A DNA stretch of 10,122 bases from Thermoanaerobaculia bacterium. Lineage in GTDB: Bacteria; Acidobacteriota; Thermoanaerobaculia; Multivoradales; JAHEKO01. Below, in pieces: positions 434 to 10,122 of this stretch. The position numbers and the translations under genes are program-made. The DNA is taken from the NCBI GenBank assembly GCA_029287645.1, contig JARFQS010000054.1, positions 1-10,122 on the forward strand, given 5' to 3'. The first letter of the stretch is position 1, and every line of letters begins with the position of its first letter. The notes beneath the pieces are model-generated. The model worked only from the letters and a program-made list of their open reading frames with translations, did not search any database and was not told the DNA's origin.

Positions 434-1612
434 TCACGCCACTTCTTCGGTGACAAATTCCTCTTCGCCGAGGACCTCCAGGCCGCGCTGCAGGGTGCGA
501 TCCTCGATCTCTTCGTCGTCTTCAGAGGCGGGGCGCAGCATCTCGCTGACCACGACGTCCGGCACCAGGCTGCTCGAGATCGGCTCACCGTCCGGGCCGG
601 TGTAGTAAGCGTCGGTCAGGAGGACTCCCGAACCGTCGGACAGAGGGACGAGCCTCTGATGGCCGGCCAGGCCGAAGCTCCTCTGACCGACCAGCTGGGC
701 CTCGGACCGTTGGCGCAGGACAGCGGCGAGAATCTCGGCCGGGCCCTGGGTTCCAGCATTGACCAGGACGACCGTGTCTCCTGTCCAGGGCACGGCCTGG
801 AGACCCTGGAAGCGAACTTCGGCACCCTCGGCGCCCTGCAGTCGACCCAGCTCTCCACTCACAAACAGGCCGGCGATGGAATAGGCGGCTTCGCTACTGC
901 CACCGGCCAGACCTCGCAAGTCGATGAGCAGCTTGTTCTGGCCCGACCGAGTCAAGCCGACGAGAAGATTGCGGACTTCGTCAACCGTCTCCGGCTCGAT
1001 TCGCCCGAGCCGCAGCACGGCCAGACCCTCCTGTTCCTCGAGCGCCGGAGCGGACGGTGGGTAGGTCTGGAGTTGCAGGGTCAGCTCTTTCGGCTGGCCG
1101 CGTCGCAGAATCTCCAGCTCGAGATCGGTTCCCGGATCCTGAGCCAGAACCGACTGCAGCTCCCACAGGGGGATACCGCGGGTCGAACGGCCATCGATCT
1201 CGGCCAGGATGTCCCCCACTTCCAGTCCCGCAGTCGCCCCGGGACTACCGGCATCGACAGCGATCACGAAGGCGATCCCCCTCTCCTTGCCGACGGTCAG
1301 GCCACTATGGTCCCGTCCGATTTCGCGAACCTTCTCATAGTCACTCAGTGAGTCCGCCGGAACGTAGGTCGACAGCGGGTCCAGCGCGTCGGTCGCTCCA
1401 TCCAGAGCCCCGACCAAGAGCTCGTCGATGGAAGTCTCTTCGACATAGGCCCTTCGGATCAGGGACATCACCTCGGAGAAGACCGACAGATGCTTGGAAA
1501 GCGCATCGTCGTCTGCCGGCTTGTCCGTGGCAGCCCGGGACAGGGTGCCGGAGATAACGGGCAGCAAAACCGCAAGAGAGAGAAGAAAGAAGAGAAGACG
1601 ACTTCGGTTCAT
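434..1612 (-). CDS. S41-family (CtpA-like) PDZ protein with the catalytic Ser-Lys dyad lost
   Basis: This 392-residue protein has the architecture of a carboxy-terminal processing protease. It has an N-terminal signal sequence (RLLFFLLSLAVLLPVISGTL), a helical S41 N-terminal region (about 35-95), a PDZ domain (about 100-185) and an S41 core (about 195-357). The core keeps family landmarks: DLRGLAGG (cf. DLRxNPGG), VVLVNAG and a PLSDGSGVLLTDAYYTGPDG stretch. The nucleophile motif, normally SASASE after the NxG, reads TQGPAE, which places Gly290 at the catalytic Ser. The FGK motif reads FGL, placing Leu315 at the catalytic Lys. The two sites are 25 residues apart, as in E. coli Prc (Ser430, Lys455), so the alignment is unambiguous. 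The fold seems intact but proteolysis is not expected. The C-terminus is strongly acidic. It follows the EnvC-like gene after 24 bases, with AGGTGAGG as a plausible ribosome site. A scaffold, adaptor or substrate-holding role in the periplasm is inference. Confidence 0.88.
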   Translation of the reverse strand: MNRSRLLFFLLSLAVLLPVISGTLSRAATDKPADDDALSKHLSVFSEVMSLIRRAYVEETSIDELLVGALDGATDALDPLSTYVPADSLSDYEKVREIGRDHSGLTVGKERGIAFVIAVDAGSPGATAGLEVGDILAEIDGRSTRGIPLWELQSVLAQDPGTDLELEILRRGQPKELTLQLQTYPPSAPALEEQEGLAVLRLGRIEPETVDEVRNLLVGLTRSGQNKLLIDLRGLAGGSSEAAYSIAGLFVSGELGRLQGAEGAEVRFQGLQAVPWTGDTVVLVNAGTQGPAEILAAVLRQRSEAQLVGQRSFGLAGHQRLVPLSDGSGVLLTDAYYTGPDGEPISSSLVPDVVVSEMLRPASEDDEEIEDRTLQRGLEVLGEEEFVTEEVA

Positions 1613-1636: not shown

Positions 1637-2821
1637 TCAGCGCAGCCACTGCGCGGGGTCGACAGGCCGGTTTTCTTCGCGTATCTCGAAGTACAGGGTG
1701 TCCGTGGCGATGCCGATGACCTGGCCCAAAGATAACACATCCTCCGCGCCGACCCGGAGCTCTCCGAGGCCGGCGTAGAGTGAGAATACGCGGCCTGGAT
1801 GGTGCACGACAGCCGTCAGTCCATAGCCCTGGAACGGGGCCGCGTAGAGCACCTTGCCCGGAAAAACGACTCGCACCTCGCGACCCGTCGGCGTGGCCAG
1901 CTCCAGGCCGTTGTGGGGCACACGAGTGCCGTACACGGGGTCCAGACGCGGCCCGAATCCCTTCGATATCCTGGCTTGGATCGGCCAGTCCAGCACACCC
2001 TTGAAGTTCTGGACCGGGGTCCCGCTCAGCGGTGTCGGAGTACGGCCGTAGAGGAAGTCCAGAAAGTTCGAGAGCTTTCTTTCCTTGTCACTCAACTCTG
2101 CGGTCTTGACGGTGAGGCTCTCCCGCTCCCTCTCCAGCTGGGCGAGGAGCGTCGTCTGCCTCTGCTGAAGCCGGCCCAGCTCGGTCAGTCGCGAGGACTC
2201 CCGACCCAGCCAGTCTTCGACGTCCGCCCTGTGCTGTAACGCTTGCTCCTGCTGGAACTCGAGCTCGGTGTAGGTCTCGAGATAGGCATTCAACAATTCA
2301 CTGTCCCGCCGCACGAAGAAGCGCATCTGGCGAATGCCGGGCAGCAGGTCGCTTTCCGATCGAATCGACAGGAACAGCCTCAGGTAGCCCTGCTGGCCCA
2401 TCCGATAGAGATCGGCGAGGCTCTGCTTGAGCTTGCCGCGCACCTCTTCCAGAGACGCCTCGAGCTCCAGGACTTCTTCCCCGACAACCTCGAGGGATTC
2501 CTCCGCCAGCAGACGGGCGGTTCGAGCCTCTTCGACCCGCTTCTCCTGGAGCTCGATGGCAACGGCCGTCTGTCGCACCTCGCCCCGCAGCCCCTGCTCC
2601 TCTCTGCTGACCCTGTTGAGCCTCGACTGCAGGACCATGATCTGGTCACGAATGGCCTCCAACTCGCCCTCTCTGTCCGGTATCTGGGCATTCAGCGCAG
2701 CGATCGGCGCTACCCAGGCCAGGGCCAACGCCATGCACACAGACCACCCCCTGGCGGTCCATCTGTCCAGCACAGACGAGCACCGCCGGTCGTGGGGGCT
2801 ATCAGAACTGTCGAAAGGCAT
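1637..2821 (-). CDS. EnvC-like murein hydrolase activator: coiled coil plus degenerate LytM/M23 domain
   Basis: This 394-residue exported protein has a hydrophobic signal segment (about 28-46, MALALAWVAPIAALNAQ). A long coiled coil follows in two stretches (about 48-145 and 175-255) around the hinge LYRMGQQGYLRLFLSI. A linker leads to a C-terminal LytM/M23 fold (about 275-394) that begins WPIQARISKGFGPR. This order is that of E. coli EnvC, which activates periplasmic amidases under FtsEX control. The zinc site is degraded: HNGLE stands where HxGxD is expected (His303 kept, Asp replaced by Glu307), YAGL replaces YxHL (Gly351), and TLY replaces HLH (Thr375, Tyr377). Direct peptidoglycan cleavage is therefore unlikely, and activation of an amidase is the better inference. 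The start is uncertain: the ATG at 2821 has only a weak ribosome site, and a GTG at codon 28 or ATG at codon 30 sits immediately before the signal core. It is followed by the S41 gene, as envC and ctpA are often adjacent in other bacteria. Confidence 0.88.
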   Translation of the reverse strand: MPFDSSDSPHDRRCSSVLDRWTARGWSVCMALALAWVAPIAALNAQIPDREGELEAIRDQIMVLQSRLNRVSREEQGLRGEVRQTAVAIELQEKRVEEARTARLLAEESLEVVGEEVLELEASLEEVRGKLKQSLADLYRMGQQGYLRLFLSIRSESDLLPGIRQMRFFVRRDSELLNAYLETYTELEFQQEQALQHRADVEDWLGRESSRLTELGRLQQRQTTLLAQLERERESLTVKTAELSDKERKLSNFLDFLYGRTPTPLSGTPVQNFKGVLDWPIQARISKGFGPRLDPVYGTRVPHNGLELATPTGREVRVVFPGKVLYAAPFQGYGLTAVVHHPGRVFSLYAGLGELRVGAEDVLSLGQVIGIATDTLYFEIREENRPVDPAQWLR

Positions 2822-2878: not shown

Positions 2879-3220
2879 TCAGTCCTCGAAGGTGGCGACC
2901 GCTTCTTCCTCGTCGTCCAGGACCTCGAACACCGTCACCAGCTGGGTGATCTGCAGGATATCCTGGACCTTGGGCGGCAAGTGAAGGAGCCGCAGGGCAC
3001 CACCTCGGTTGGTCACCGATGTGTACGCCGAGACCAGCTCGCCGATCCCCGAGGAATCGATCGTGCTCACATCCTTGAGGTTGATGAGGATCTTGGTGGA
3101 ACCCGCCTCGAGGGCTTCGTGTACCGCCTCGCGCAGCGCCACGTCTCCCACGCCGATGGTGATCTTGCCTTTCGGCTCGAGAATCGTGATGCCTGCTCGG
3201 TGTCGGGCCGGAATCTTCAT
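2879..3220 (-). CDS. STAS-domain anti-sigma factor antagonist (RsbV/SpoIIAA-like)
   Basis: This 113-residue single-domain STAS protein carries the family's phosphorylation motif in VSTIDSSGIGEL, with candidate serines at 56 and 57. The secondary-structure pattern of the family is readable: a first strand ITILEPKGKI, then a helix ALREAVHEAL, the strand KILINLKDV, the Ser loop, a helix and the strand ALRLLHL. Members bind an anti-sigma kinase when unphosphorylated, freeing its sigma factor; phosphorylation by the kinase reverses this. The gene starts inside the end of the upstream kinase gene (ATGA overlap, 4 bases) behind a near-perfect AGGAGG 7 bases upstream, so the pair is probably translationally coupled. 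A short acidic tail (DDEEEAVATFED) ends the protein. The following gap of 57 bases to the EnvC-like gene holds no clear terminator. Confidence 0.93.
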   Translation of the reverse strand: MKIPARHRAGITILEPKGKITIGVGDVALREAVHEALEAGSTKILINLKDVSTIDSSGIGELVSAYTSVTNRGGALRLLHLPPKVQDILQITQLVTVFEVLDDEEEAVATFED

Positions 3221-3690
3221 TGCTTCTCCTCCTCTTGTTGCTTGGCCGAATTGGAACGTAACACCGCCAACTCCTTGCGCATCTCCACGACGGTGCCGCT
3301 CTCTGGCTGAAAAGTGTACTCGATTTGATCCATGAACTGGTGCATCAGCAGGATGCCACGACCGTTCCTGCGAAGCAGGTTCTCGGGCTCCAGTGGGTTC
3401 GGCACTCCATTGACGTCGAATCCGACCCCCTGATCATGAACTCGGATGAGCAGGTCTCCGTCGTCGATGCCCATCTCCACCTTGACCAGTTTGCTCACAT
3501 CCCCCTGGTTCCCGTGTTTGATGGCGTTGGCGACGGCTTCTCGGATCGAGATGCCTATCTGGTGGGCATCGTCGTCACTCAGGTCCAATTGAGCCAACGA
3601 CGACTCGACAGCAATCTGGACCAACTCTACGTTCTCCAGACGGCTCTCGACCTCTACGTGGACCCTGGGCTCCGACTTCATCATGGACAT
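3217..3690 (-). CDS. RsbW/SpoIIAB-like anti-sigma factor serine kinase (HATPase_c)
   Basis: This 157-residue protein has a GHKL ATP-binding fold and no sensor domain. The N box is SIREAVANAIKHGN (Glu51 as probable catalytic base, Asn55 as Mg ligand). The G1 box is HDQGVGFD (Asp86, Gly88, Gly90) and the G2 box is NGRGILLM (about 109-116). Length and layout match RsbW/SpoIIAB. These kinases phosphorylate the partner STAS protein and sequester a sigma factor, or in some lineages a different target. The neighbouring STAS gene is the obvious substrate. No sigma factor is in this window. The start is the first of three close Met codons (1, 3, 4) and none has a convincing ribosome site. The C-terminal tail KQQEEEKQ is encoded by the same purine-rich bases that serve as the ribosome site of the STAS gene. 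The gene lies 36 bases after the CPBP gene. Confidence 0.92.
   Translation of the reverse strand: MSMMKSEPRVHVEVESRLENVELVQIAVESSLAQLDLSDDDAHQIGISIREAVANAIKHGNQGDVSKLVKVEMGIDDGDLLIRVHDQGVGFDVNGVPNPLEPENLLRRNGRGILLMHQFMDQIEYTFQPESGTVVEMRKELAVLRSNSAKQQEEEKQ
3228..3233 (-). promoter_or_regulatory. Ribosome binding site AGGAGG for the STAS gene, inside the kinase gene
   Basis: On the - strand AGGAGG lies 7 bases before the ATG of the STAS gene, within the last codons of the kinase gene. Together with the ATGA start/stop overlap it supports coupled translation of kinase and antagonist, which would help keep their ratio constant. Confidence 0.8.
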
Positions 3691-3726: not shown

Positions 3727-4677
3727 TCAGAATCCCAGCGAGGCGAGAATCGCCGCAACGGGTATGGGGATCTCCGGACCGCCCTCCTCCAGCAGCCTGA
3801 GGGCCCACGGGATGATCACCAACAGCTGCATGGCGTCGAACAGGGTGTGCGCCGCGATCGCCGCCCAGATGGTCTGACGCCAGACCACGAGAAGTCCGTA
3901 GATCAGGGACAGAAGCGTGATGCCGACAAGCATGAGAGGCTGCTCGTAGCTGGCGTGTGCCAGAACGAAGAGCCCGGTCGACAGGGCCAGGCCGATGCGA
4001 GGCTGAAGGAAGCCACGAAAGAAGGTTTCCTCGACGACACCCGCCGACAGGCTGACCAGCAGTCTTACAGCTATGGGTAGGCCGGCGATCCAGGGCACCA
4101 CCGAAGGCGGTTCTGTGGGCAGATACTCGGCCCCGCCCAACCACCACACCAGCAGGGCCACGGAGGTCAGAGCGATCAGAACGACGAACCACGCCCCCAA
4201 CCCGACAGCGAGTCCCAGGCCGAGCTCGCGCCAGATCGACGTAGCCCTGAACCCCAACTGCGCTATCCACCCGTTCTTGCCCTCCGCCCCGTACCCCGGA
4301 AAGCCCGCAAAGCCCAGGACATACCAGATCATCAGGACGAACACGAACAGGAAGTGGAGGAGAAACAGCTGCGGCGTGCTGACCGCGGACAGATCCAACT
4401 CCGTGGTCTGCCCGAGAGTCGCCAGGGGAAAGAACACGCCGATCCAGAGCGCCCCCCACAGACAGGTGAGGGCGAGGCTGCGCCGCACGACCCCCATCTT
4501 CCAAGCTCGGCTTCCGGGTTCGGCAGAGTCCTCGAATCCAGGCGGAAGGAGACCTCTTCGCCAACAGGATCGGTCGAAGAACAGCGCCGTCAGAAGAGCC
4601 AGAACGGCCGGTGTGGCCAACCTCAGAATCGACATCAGCAAGGCCACTCGGGAGCGGGGGAAAACATAGAGCGGCAT
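3727..4677 (-). CDS. CPBP-family intramembrane metalloprotease (Abi/Rce1-like)
   Basis: This 316-residue protein has about seven or eight hydrophobic segments. The three CPBP signature motifs are all present in order in the C-terminal half: EExxxR (Glu216-Glu217 to Arg221 in VVEETFFRGF), FxxxH (Phe237 to His241 in LFVLAHASY) and HxxxD (His277 to Asp281 in AHTLFDAMQ). This is the full predicted active site of a membrane-embedded glutamate/zinc-type protease related to eukaryotic Rce1. Bacterial members have varied roles (bacteriocin maturation or immunity, anti-sigma processing, adaptor roles), so the substrate is unknown. It is the first gene of the - strand run, 36 bases ahead of the anti-sigma kinase. 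A role in that signalling path is possible but unproven. The ATG at 4677 has only a weak upstream purine stretch, and Met15 is an alternative start. Confidence 0.88.
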   Translation of the reverse strand: MPLYVFPRSRVALLMSILRLATPAVLALLTALFFDRSCWRRGLLPPGFEDSAEPGSRAWKMGVVRRSLALTCLWGALWIGVFFPLATLGQTTELDLSAVSTPQLFLLHFLFVFVLMIWYVLGFAGFPGYGAEGKNGWIAQLGFRATSIWRELGLGLAVGLGAWFVVLIALTSVALLVWWLGGAEYLPTEPPSVVPWIAGLPIAVRLLVSLSAGVVEETFFRGFLQPRIGLALSTGLFVLAHASYEQPLMLVGITLLSLIYGLLVVWRQTIWAAIAAHTLFDAMQLLVIIPWALRLLEEGGPEIPIPVAAILASLGF

Positions 4678-7104: not shown

Positions 7105-8253
7105 ATGAGCATCACCGGTAACCTCAAGACGATGGAGCTCGCCGAGCTCTTGCAGTGGCTCTCTCAGGGCCGCAAGAGCGGGACTTTGTACATCAACAAC
7201 GGCAAGGTCGAGAAGCAGATCTTCTTCCAGGAAGGAACGATCGTCTCTTCGGCCGCCAGCGACCCGAAGGAATACCTGGGCCACTTCCTGGTCAGCCACG
7301 GCTTTATCGACGAGCTCACCCTCGCCAAAGCCATGGAGATGCAGGAAGACAACAAGATGCTCCTCGGCAAGATCCTGCTGACCATCGGCGCGATCTCGGA
7401 GACCGACCTCGACCGCATGCTGCGCCTCAAAGCCGAGGAGAGCATCTACGAGATCTTCACCTGGACCGAGGGCGAGTTCCGCTTCGCCGATGGGGACCTA
7501 CCGGACTACCACATGTGGCCGCTCTCGCTGAGTGTCACGGCGGTCGTGCTGGAGGGCCATCAGAGGGTCGACGAGTGGAAGCAGATTCGCGCCCGCATTC
7601 CGAACAGCAGCGCGGTGCCGGTAGCCACACGCGAGCTGAGGAGCGAGGAGCCGGATCCCGGAGTCGAGAAGATCCTGGCCCTCGTCGATGACGACCGCAC
7701 CATCCAGGAGATCGCCCTGCAGACCCACTCGGGAGAGTTCCACGTCTGCAGGGTCCTGTATGAACAGATCCGAGCCGGCAGGCTCAAGATCGTTCGTCCC
7801 CGCCAGATGAAGGTCGAGGCCGAGGCGGCACCGACTCCGCAAGTCACCAACGACGACACGGTCGACGCCGACTCCCTGTTGCGGATCGCGGACCAGCACA
7901 TCGAGAGCCGAGAATTCGCCCGCGCCATCCGACACCTGAGAGCCGCCCAGAACCTCGAGCCCGACAGCAACCGCATCAAGCGAACCGTCGAAGCCGCCGA
8001 GAAGCGGATCGTTCTCGCCGTCCGACAGGACGGAATCGAAATGAAGGCCGTGCCGGTACTCAAGTGCGACCCGTCCGCACTCGACACCCTGGATATCTCG
8101 CCACAGCAGGGGTTCATCCTGACGCGACTCAACGGTACCTACGATATCCAGACGATTCTGAAGATCACGCCCGTCCCACCGCTCGAAGCGCAAGTCTTGT
8201 TCTGGAAGCTGCACCAGGCAGGCCACATCGATCTGGAACCTCCGAAGAGCTAG
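7105..8253 (+). CDS. DUF4388 (PATAN-type) regulatory protein with tandem MshEN-like motifs and TPR-like segment
   Basis: This 382-residue protein has no signal peptide or membrane segment. Residues 1-55 are the typical DUF4388 opening (ITGNLKTMELAELLQWLSQG, then KSGTLYI and IFFQEGTIVSSAAS). Residues 57-80 and 86-109 are two 24-residue repeats with the pattern LGxxLxxxGxIxxxxLxxxM/L, separated by 5 residues. Residues 110-135 are ESIYEIFTWTEGEFRFADG, again typical. A winged-helix-like segment follows at about 186-230 (VEKILALVDDDRTIQEIA, VLYEQIRAGRLKIV), then a TPR-like helix pair at about 255-300. A second winged-helix-like segment lies at about 335-378 (LNGTYDIQTILK, VLFWKLHQAGHIDLE). DUF4388 proteins are common in predatory, gliding and environmental bacteria, often beside response-regulator or GTPase genes, but their biochemical role is not settled. 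It has its own TATAAT, and the short leader lacks a ribosome site. A signalling-adaptor role is inference. Confidence 0.85.
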   Translation: MSITGNLKTMELAELLQWLSQGRKSGTLYINNGKVEKQIFFQEGTIVSSAASDPKEYLGHFLVSHGFIDELTLAKAMEMQEDNKMLLGKILLTIGAISETDLDRMLRLKAEESIYEIFTWTEGEFRFADGDLPDYHMWPLSLSVTAVVLEGHQRVDEWKQIRARIPNSSAVPVATRELRSEEPDPGVEKILALVDDDRTIQEIALQTHSGEFHVCRVLYEQIRAGRLKIVRPRQMKVEAEAAPTPQVTNDDTVDADSLLRIADQHIESREFARAIRHLRAAQNLEPDSNRIKRTVEAAEKRIVLAVRQDGIEMKAVPVLKCDPSALDTLDISPQQGFILTRLNGTYDIQTILKITPVPPLEAQVLFWKLHQAGHIDLEPPKS

Positions 8254-9679: not shown

Positions 9680-10122
9680 CTACTGCTGGCCGTCGCCGGA
9701 CGGCATCTTGACCACGACCAGGGTCCGGTCGTCCTCCGCCGGCGCGCCATTGCAGTAGGCCTCGAGTCGGTCGAAGATGGCGTCGATGACCTCGGTCGCC
9801 GATTCGGATCGGTGCTGACGGGCCGTCTCGATGAGCCTGTCGAGCCCGAACTCCTCCAGCTCGCCATCCTCCCCTCGACAAGTCGCCTCGATGATGCCGT
9901 CCGTGTAGAGAACCAGGAGATCGCCAGGTCGGATCTTGACGAAGCCCCTTTCGTAGGTGGCGTCTTCGATCGGGCCGAGCACCACACCGCCCCGCTCCAG
10001 CAGCTTCGTGCTCCCATCCGCCGACAGACGGAAGGGTGCCGGATGCCCGCAGTTCACATAGACGAAGTTGCCGCTGCTCTCCAGCTCACCGTAGACCATG
10101 GAGACGAAGCGACTCGTCAGAG
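9680..10122 (-). CDS. SpoIIE/RsbU-type PP2C serine phosphatase, C-terminal part (5' end outside window)
   Basis: About 147 C-terminal residues of a PP2C-like phosphatase of the SpoIIE/RsbU class are visible. The frame is open through the right edge, and the residues before the internal Met at 10099 (SRFVSMVYGELE) already fit the family, so the gene starts outside. Conserved pieces are the strand and loop VYVNCGHPAPFRL, a GxxLG-type GGVVLGPIED, GDLLVLYTDGIIEA with the metal-binding Asp, the FGLDRLIE helix region and the terminal DDRTLVVVKM with the second metal-binding Asp. This class dephosphorylates STAS anti-sigma antagonists and so reverses the kinase. Its sensor domain, if any, lies outside the window. 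The stop faces the beta-helix gene across 43 bases in which I see no clear terminator. The RsbV-like protein at 2879-3220 is a plausible substrate, but the two loci are about 6 kb apart. Confidence 0.93.
   Translation of the reverse strand, partial: LTSRFVSMVYGELESSGNFVYVNCGHPAPFRLSADGSTKLLERGGVVLGPIEDATYERGFVKIRPGDLLVLYTDGIIEATCRGEDGELEEFGLDRLIETARQHRSESATEVIDAIFDRLEAYCNGAPAEDDRTLVVVKMPSGDGQQ

Follow-up and report, generated by a model that had tools for sequence, protein, structure and literature searches.

A dyad-less, probably non-proteolytic S41/PDZ protein is maintained beside an EnvC-like factor in Acidobacteriota and could act as a scaffold

Carboxyl-terminal processing proteases (CTPs) have been described as enzymes that cut proteins, and the substrates degraded by some of them include cell-wall hydrolases; IRBP is a non-proteolytic relative within the same S41 family. 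EnvC, an M23 protein without catalytic activity, serves in other bacteria as an activator of amidases, with Amidase_3 proteins as its usual targets and FtsX_ECD as its partner domain. Here we describe a homologue of the CtpA/CtpB-type S41A CTPs, called pseudo-CTP below, which has lost both catalytic residues and is encoded beside an EnvC-like gene on a stretch of 10,122 nucleotides from a Thermoanaerobaculia bacterium (Acidobacteriota; contig JARFQS010000054.1; hereafter the window). In Pseudomonas aeruginosa CtpA, the catalytic dyad is formed by Ser302 and Lys327, 25 residues apart; S302A or K327A singly abolishes activity in vivo and Q331A has a minor effect (PMC11021448, the part available to us). 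This active CtpA is encoded in the operon envC-ctpA-PA5135, and the envC-ctpA gene order is therefore common to P. aeruginosa and the window (PMC12569750, likewise available in part). The LbcA-CtpA and NlpI-Prc systems resemble the window locus in that envelope hydrolase control is, or in the window would be, built around a CTP. However, in those systems an active CTP degrades the hydrolases, whereas the envC-linked homologue in the window should be unable to cut.

The pseudo-CTP gene is an intact open reading frame (ORF) on the minus strand (434..1612), starting with ATG and encoding a complete CtpA-type S41/PDZ protein of 392 amino acids. As in CtpA and CtpB, an N-terminal export-type helix (residues 1-28, 1529..1612) is present, which by inspection could be a signal peptide or an anchor and which appears as a helix at residues 3-28 in the predicted structure. 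It is followed by a PDZ domain (residues 104-181, 1070..1303; Pfam PDZ_6, 44.3 bits against a cut-off of 27) and then the S41 core (548..1021; Pfam Peptidase_S41, 84.1 bits against a cut-off of 24). The match to NCBIfam TIGR00225 (prc), at 115.3 bits, was below the curated cut-off of 218.6. The AlphaFold model showed the full-length CTP fold with a predicted local distance difference test score (pLDDT) of 84.5, and IRBP modules were among its fold matches; IRBP is an animal ligand-binding protein, and the likeness is confined to the fold.

An earlier note, made from the letters of the window, had claimed that Gly replaces the nucleophile and Leu the general base. This was borne out by phmmer alignments with structure entries, by homologues and by codon reading, which place Gly290 (GGC, 743..745, minus strand) and Leu315 (CTG, 668..670, minus strand) on the nucleophile and base columns of P. 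aeruginosa CtpA (7rpq, and its S302A form 7rqh) and of Helicobacter pylori CtpA (9ku0). Against P. aeruginosa CtpA, the aligned segments read NAGTQGPAEI and NGGSASAAEI around the nucleophile, and SFGLAG and SFGKGS around the base. There was no gap between the two sites and their spacing equals that of the P. aeruginosa dyad, so the note was right to call this substitution, and misalignment as the source of the missing dyad is ruled out. Gln319, the remaining residue of the proposed triad, is retained. Because both Ser and Lys are replaced, and either single mutation is enough to inactivate P. aeruginosa CtpA (PMC11021448, in the part available), the window protein should not cut, as the note expected.

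Conservation argues that this state has been maintained, and taken together we consider it very probable that the protein is both non-proteolytic and kept by selection. Homologue statistics rest on the best 120 of 276 homologues. Residue 290 was Gly in 120/120, and Lys was found at residue 315 in none of the 119 that reach the site, where Leu, His, Trp, Tyr, Phe or Asn occurs instead. The note had asked whether orthologues share the Gly/Leu pair; the Gly is common to all, but the Leu is variable, although never Lys. Across the phylum, the Lys site holds L, H, W, Y, F, N, M, R, A, S and others. The ratios of nonsynonymous to synonymous substitution (dN/dS) in three same-genus pairs were 0.097, 0.120 and 0.177, values that are rough, as two of the three pairs have almost saturated synonymous sites, but that indicate purifying selection. 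With the orthologue conservation and the complete predicted fold, these ratios uphold the note's view of maintenance rather than decay. A search of relatives matched the query in 58/59 genomes, its own included, although some of the matches are not orthologues. In a named collection, 30 loci were matched, of which 26 were dyad-less, two were cut before the site and two, from Alistipes and Schleiferiaceae, carried the Ser/Lys (S/K) pair. The titles of the other 28 were mostly Acidobacteria/Acidobacteriota or Thermoanaerobaculia, with a few uncultured bacterium, Holophagales and Vicinamibacteraceae, and one 'Deltaproteobacteria'.

Directly upstream, and ending 24 bp before the pseudo-CTP gene begins, lies a gene for an EnvC-like protein (1637..2821, minus strand). 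Like EnvC of Escherichia coli and Vibrio cholerae and other dead LytM factors, it has a coiled coil and an M23 domain without the HxH pair; its model consists of two helices of about 100 residues and a beta domain. It matched 8tzk_E, a V. cholerae FtsEX-EnvC type chain, over residues 40-381 (E 8.9e-21) as a full-length relative, and it scored 49.7 bits against the NCBIfam EnvC equivalog, below the cut-off of 270, so by that model it is EnvC-like. Active M23 enzymes carry an HxH zinc motif, and at this position the window protein has Thr-Leu-Tyr (1691..1699, minus strand). The pair was kept in 0/104 readable EnvC-like rows, three of which retain one His (the alignment holds 105 rows, 88 distinct sequences from 83 genomes, with one row gapped at the motif). 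Judged by these motifs, a predicted dead LytM factor and a predicted dead CTP are encoded side by side. EnvC is a protein distinct from pseudo-CTP, and is relevant here as the proposed partner and as a precedent for a dead hydrolase that regulates.

The gene pair extends widely through the phylum. A profile built from sequences of the window's order matched 246/247 phylum genomes, and loci were then read from the search results, two fetched sets, 26 weak-match genomes, the relatives and a family designated f10. Taking one S41 per genome and excluding rows under 150 filled columns left 131 genomes; as S41 genes resembling the profile of the order are over-represented in this sample, the counts are not unbiased frequencies. 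An EnvC-like gene was directly upstream of S41 in 80/131 genomes, or 81 with the window, which was added by hand, and 71 of these 81 paired S41 genes lack the Ser and Lys pair. Among the 80 paired genomes, 10 were S/K and 57 had Gly at the nucleophile position, the rest having A, N, E, Q, R, D or S with the pair incomplete. In one genome, G017 (L042, 5433-6829), the pseudo-CTP gene is broken into two frames that match overlapping parts of the query, which may be an assembly fault.

The note had also asked for a second, catalytically intact ctpA. A longer S41 protein with Ser and Lys was found in 16/16 genomes searched, including the window's own, where 546 codons are open; the idea that the genome's sole CtpA has gone dead is ruled out by it. 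This paralogue is about 28% identical to pseudo-CTP, and no EnvC neighbour of it was seen in the short loci read. A first tree used 131 of the 133 rows that were left once duplicates and rows with fewer than 240 filled columns had been removed; in it, 23 canonical S/K proteins formed one group, with a support of 96 in the Shimodaira-Hasegawa-like approximate likelihood ratio test (SH-aLRT).

The note had named orthologues with Ser and Lys as the result that would speak against it. None was found in the window's order, but they were seen in one family of the same class. In f10, 17 of 18 genomes have the envC-linked type, and a graded dyad series is found in one gene beside EnvC (L234-L250), with S/K in 10, A/K in two, G/K in one, S/R in one, G/R in two and one cut gene. 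Two f10 S/K rows fall among the non-S/K rows of the first tree (SH-aLRT 97). In a second tree of 130 rows, from which 22 locus prefixes were removed (long branches, near copies and duplicate f10 rows), 12 losses are needed if the dyad is never regained, against four changes if regain is allowed. Both trees are quick ones with SH-aLRT support only, with weak deep branches and a root assumed to lie between canonical and envC-linked rows. The f10 codons are TCN for Ser, GCC for Ala and GGN for Gly, and canonical paralogues also usually use TCN for Ser. As a one-step change from Gly to Ser gives AGC or AGT, the TCN codons favour retention with repeated loss. On this reading of codons and trees, f10 may show either the traces of catalysis being lost several times or a pseudoprotease that became a protease again.

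A second conserved element is the C-terminus of the window protein, Val391-Ala392 (437..442, minus strand). All 117 of the listed homologues with more than 370 residues end in Ala, preceded by Val (72) or Ala (45), while positions -3 to -11 are variable. Ala ends 119 of the full 120, one as IA, and the exception, P0016, is a fragment. In an alignment of 38 rows (A1), 8 to 14 residues follow residue 381, with the tail counted among them. As background, 234 ORFs were taken from the order's loci, these being the longest non-overlapping frames with a minimum of 200 codons rather than curated genes. A (V/A)A end was found in 0/234 of them, 10 of which have Ala as the last residue, and in 2/46 canonical CtpAs. 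It is present in 33/36 rows of the order outside family f3, the three misses being G024, the extra copy of G007 and one piece of the split gene of G017, and in 16/16 f10 rows, 10 of them S/K. A strict tie between tail and EnvC is not supported, as the tail occurs in genus g7, where no strong EnvC match was found. The PDZ domain of CtpB binds a peptide ending in Val-Pro-Ala (PMC3808539, in the part available), and an Ala end is therefore a plausible PDZ ligand. That the (V/A)A tail serves as such a ligand is a tentative suggestion, for which we would put the chances at a little under even.

These observations could be explained if pseudo-CTP is a PDZ scaffold or regulator in the control of EnvC and amidases, a reading to which we give a probability of roughly 0.48. 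The two S41 genes would share labour, the canonical CtpA elsewhere in the genome doing the cutting, while the envC-linked copy would have given up the dyad but retained its PDZ domain and overall fold, along with a (V/A)A C-terminus of its own. Pseudo-CTP would be co-expressed with EnvC and placed in the periplasm, where it could form a scaffold shaped as a resting CTP. The PDZ groove, together with the tail of the same or of a partner protomer, may then hold EnvC or an amidase complex, resulting in a gate on septal peptidoglycan hydrolysis for which proteolysis would not be needed. For EnvC as the partner in particular, we see the odds as about even. Amidase_3 genes were found in 12/12 genomes. 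The note's suggestion that the protein guides a hydrolase thus gains from the envC-S41 pair, but it is set back by the lack of a confident interface in the predicted complex and by the 42 of 131 genomes with a dyad-less S41 and no adjacent EnvC.

Several results weigh against this scaffold reading. EnvC was not adjacent in 51 of the 131 genomes, comprising the 42 with a dyad-less S41, eight with a canonical CtpA alone and one cut gene; the window's genome (G000) is misfiled among the eight because the window locus was absent from the set, and the cut gene (G303) was seen beside EnvC in another read. Genera g7 and g11 keep pseudo-CTP and gave no strong EnvC match. FtsX_ECD was found in 5/12 genomes, and in neither searched genome of the window's genus; it was not found in G000 (70% complete), G001 or G008. 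The (V/A)A tail was present in 0/11 rows of f3, in 3/6 other same-class rows and in 30/55 other-class rows, being absent in 25. When EnvC and S41 were folded as one chain, domains were mostly confident but no confident interface appeared (predicted template modelling score (pTM) 0.53; the output carries no interface scores), and the resemblance of the model to resting CTP states may be an AlphaFold default. Finally, Ala157 (1142..1144, minus strand) stands in the phmmer alignment at the basic PDZ-residue position of canonical CTPs, which we take to be that of CtpB Arg168. This sensor position was R/K in 23/23 canonical rows, and in 108 non-S/K rows was Ala in 43, Arg in 27 and Lys in eight. 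Since R168A/F lowers the ligand affinity of CtpB 3-5 fold (PMC3808539, in the part available), Ala here should weaken binding of a C-terminus. Pseudo-CTP thus differs from CtpA and CtpB in its Gly/Leu site, Ala sensor, (V/A)A end and separate S/K paralogue.

The best placed of the alternatives, although an unlikely one, is that pseudo-CTP is a regulatory subunit of the canonical CtpA, tuning the active paralogue in mixed dimers or oligomers in the manner of an inactive CTP protomer. The S/K paralogue is there to be regulated in every genome searched, and we interpret one of the best structural matches as the inactive protomer in the complex of P. aeruginosa CtpA with LbcA. G007 carries a further pseudo-CTP gene whose product has no (V/A)A end; it is oriented divergently from a neighbouring gene for an S/K CtpA with a long C-terminal extension (L068, 6260-8527). 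However, the two paralogues share only about 28% identity, and G007 aside, no locus was seen with both S41 types, the pseudo-gene pairing with envC instead.

It is less probable again that the (V/A)A tail is a degron, making pseudo-CTP a substrate of the canonical CtpA or of a cytoplasmic ATP-dependent protease, with its level reporting protease activity; a cytoplasmic protease would act on unexported pseudo-CTP. The absence of (V/A)A from all 234 background ORFs, 10 of them ending in Ala, would fit a dedicated signal, and KKAA and LAA ends presumably resemble cytoplasmic protease tags. Against this, an invariant degron across an order would in our opinion be unusual for a protein selected to persist, and the tail also occurs in all the f10 rows, most of which are S/K.

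Also improbable is a maintained non-proteolytic protein with a job unrelated to EnvC, the pair being synteny left from an ancestral envC-ctpA operon. P. aeruginosa has the same order with an active CtpA (PMC12569750, in the part available), and the dyad-less S41 genes without adjacent EnvC, as well as those of g7 and g11, would be expected. Nevertheless, pairing in 81/131 genomes over many families and the 24 bp gap in the window speak for a functional link, and in g11 the absence of EnvC coincides with absence of the tail, unlike in g7. The g11 loci concerned are L065, L066, L073, L110 and L112-L120, where a dead S41 is kept without a (V/A)A end and without a strong EnvC match; in wider loci (L065, L066 and L073) the gene is downstream of STAS.

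That catalysis persists, through a relocated or altered set of catalytic residues, is very improbable: His is among the commonest Lys-site residues in relatives and Gln319 is kept in 46/108 non-S/K rows, but the variety at that site across the phylum shows no catalytic pattern and the invariant Ser columns of alignment A1 (S12 and S103) are outside the S41 core. Local decay, sequencing or assembly error or a pseudogene, for which the fragmented, 70% complete assembly of the window's genome could be cited, is the least probable of all and is already refuted by the Gly in every one of the 120 orthologues, the low dN/dS, the intact frame and the complete fold.

Returning to the scaffold reading, a bolder form of it would make the pair a phylum-wide regulator assembled from two dead hydrolases. 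The tail would dock in the PDZ domain or vacated tunnel of the next protomer and present EnvC to amidases, and the f10 dyad would have been lost repeatedly or regained. We hold this form to be doubtful. If the reading is true, a dead S41 member would join the dead M23 (LytM) factors of cell-wall control. In most acidobacterial genomes read, a CTP homologue predicted to lack proteolytic activity has been retained next to EnvC, which suggests that binding alone is useful. The idea is testable, as f10 has one gene, at a constant location, in both dyad-intact and dyad-lost versions, and the (V/A)A end could be removed. The database label 'carboxyl-terminal processing protease' on some of these genes is likely to be functionally wrong. 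Among the papers listed from an open-access library, none described an envC-linked CTP that has gone dead, nor a dead CTP from Acidobacteriota; as the listings were capped, this is weak evidence of absence.

Further upstream on the minus strand, genes for a STAS-domain protein (2879..3220; Pfam) and an RsbW-like HATPase_c_2 protein (3217..3690; Pfam), overlapping by 4 bp, run into envC-S41. A CPBP protease gene (3727-4677, minus strand) comes before them, and many relatives show the same block. A SpoIIE phosphatase gene (9680-10120, minus strand) is cut by the right end of the window. A link between partner switching and EnvC control is possible. No FtsEX was seen by eye between STAS and envC or S41 in eight loci, where no family search was run. 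In three of these eight, L041, L042 and L051, the gap holds an ORF resembling an ABC solute-binding protein. A promoter scan gave nothing for the operon and one weak promoter-like site on the opposite strand. On the plus strand, the end of an FtsX-like ABC permease gene (3-422) is convergent with the S41 gene, and in several other genomes a relative is encoded downstream, on the opposite strand. The window also encodes a DUF4388 protein (7105-8253, plus strand), with a cyclic di-GMP-binding motif just above the NCBIfam cut-off, and contains seven terminator-like sites against 2.8 expected.
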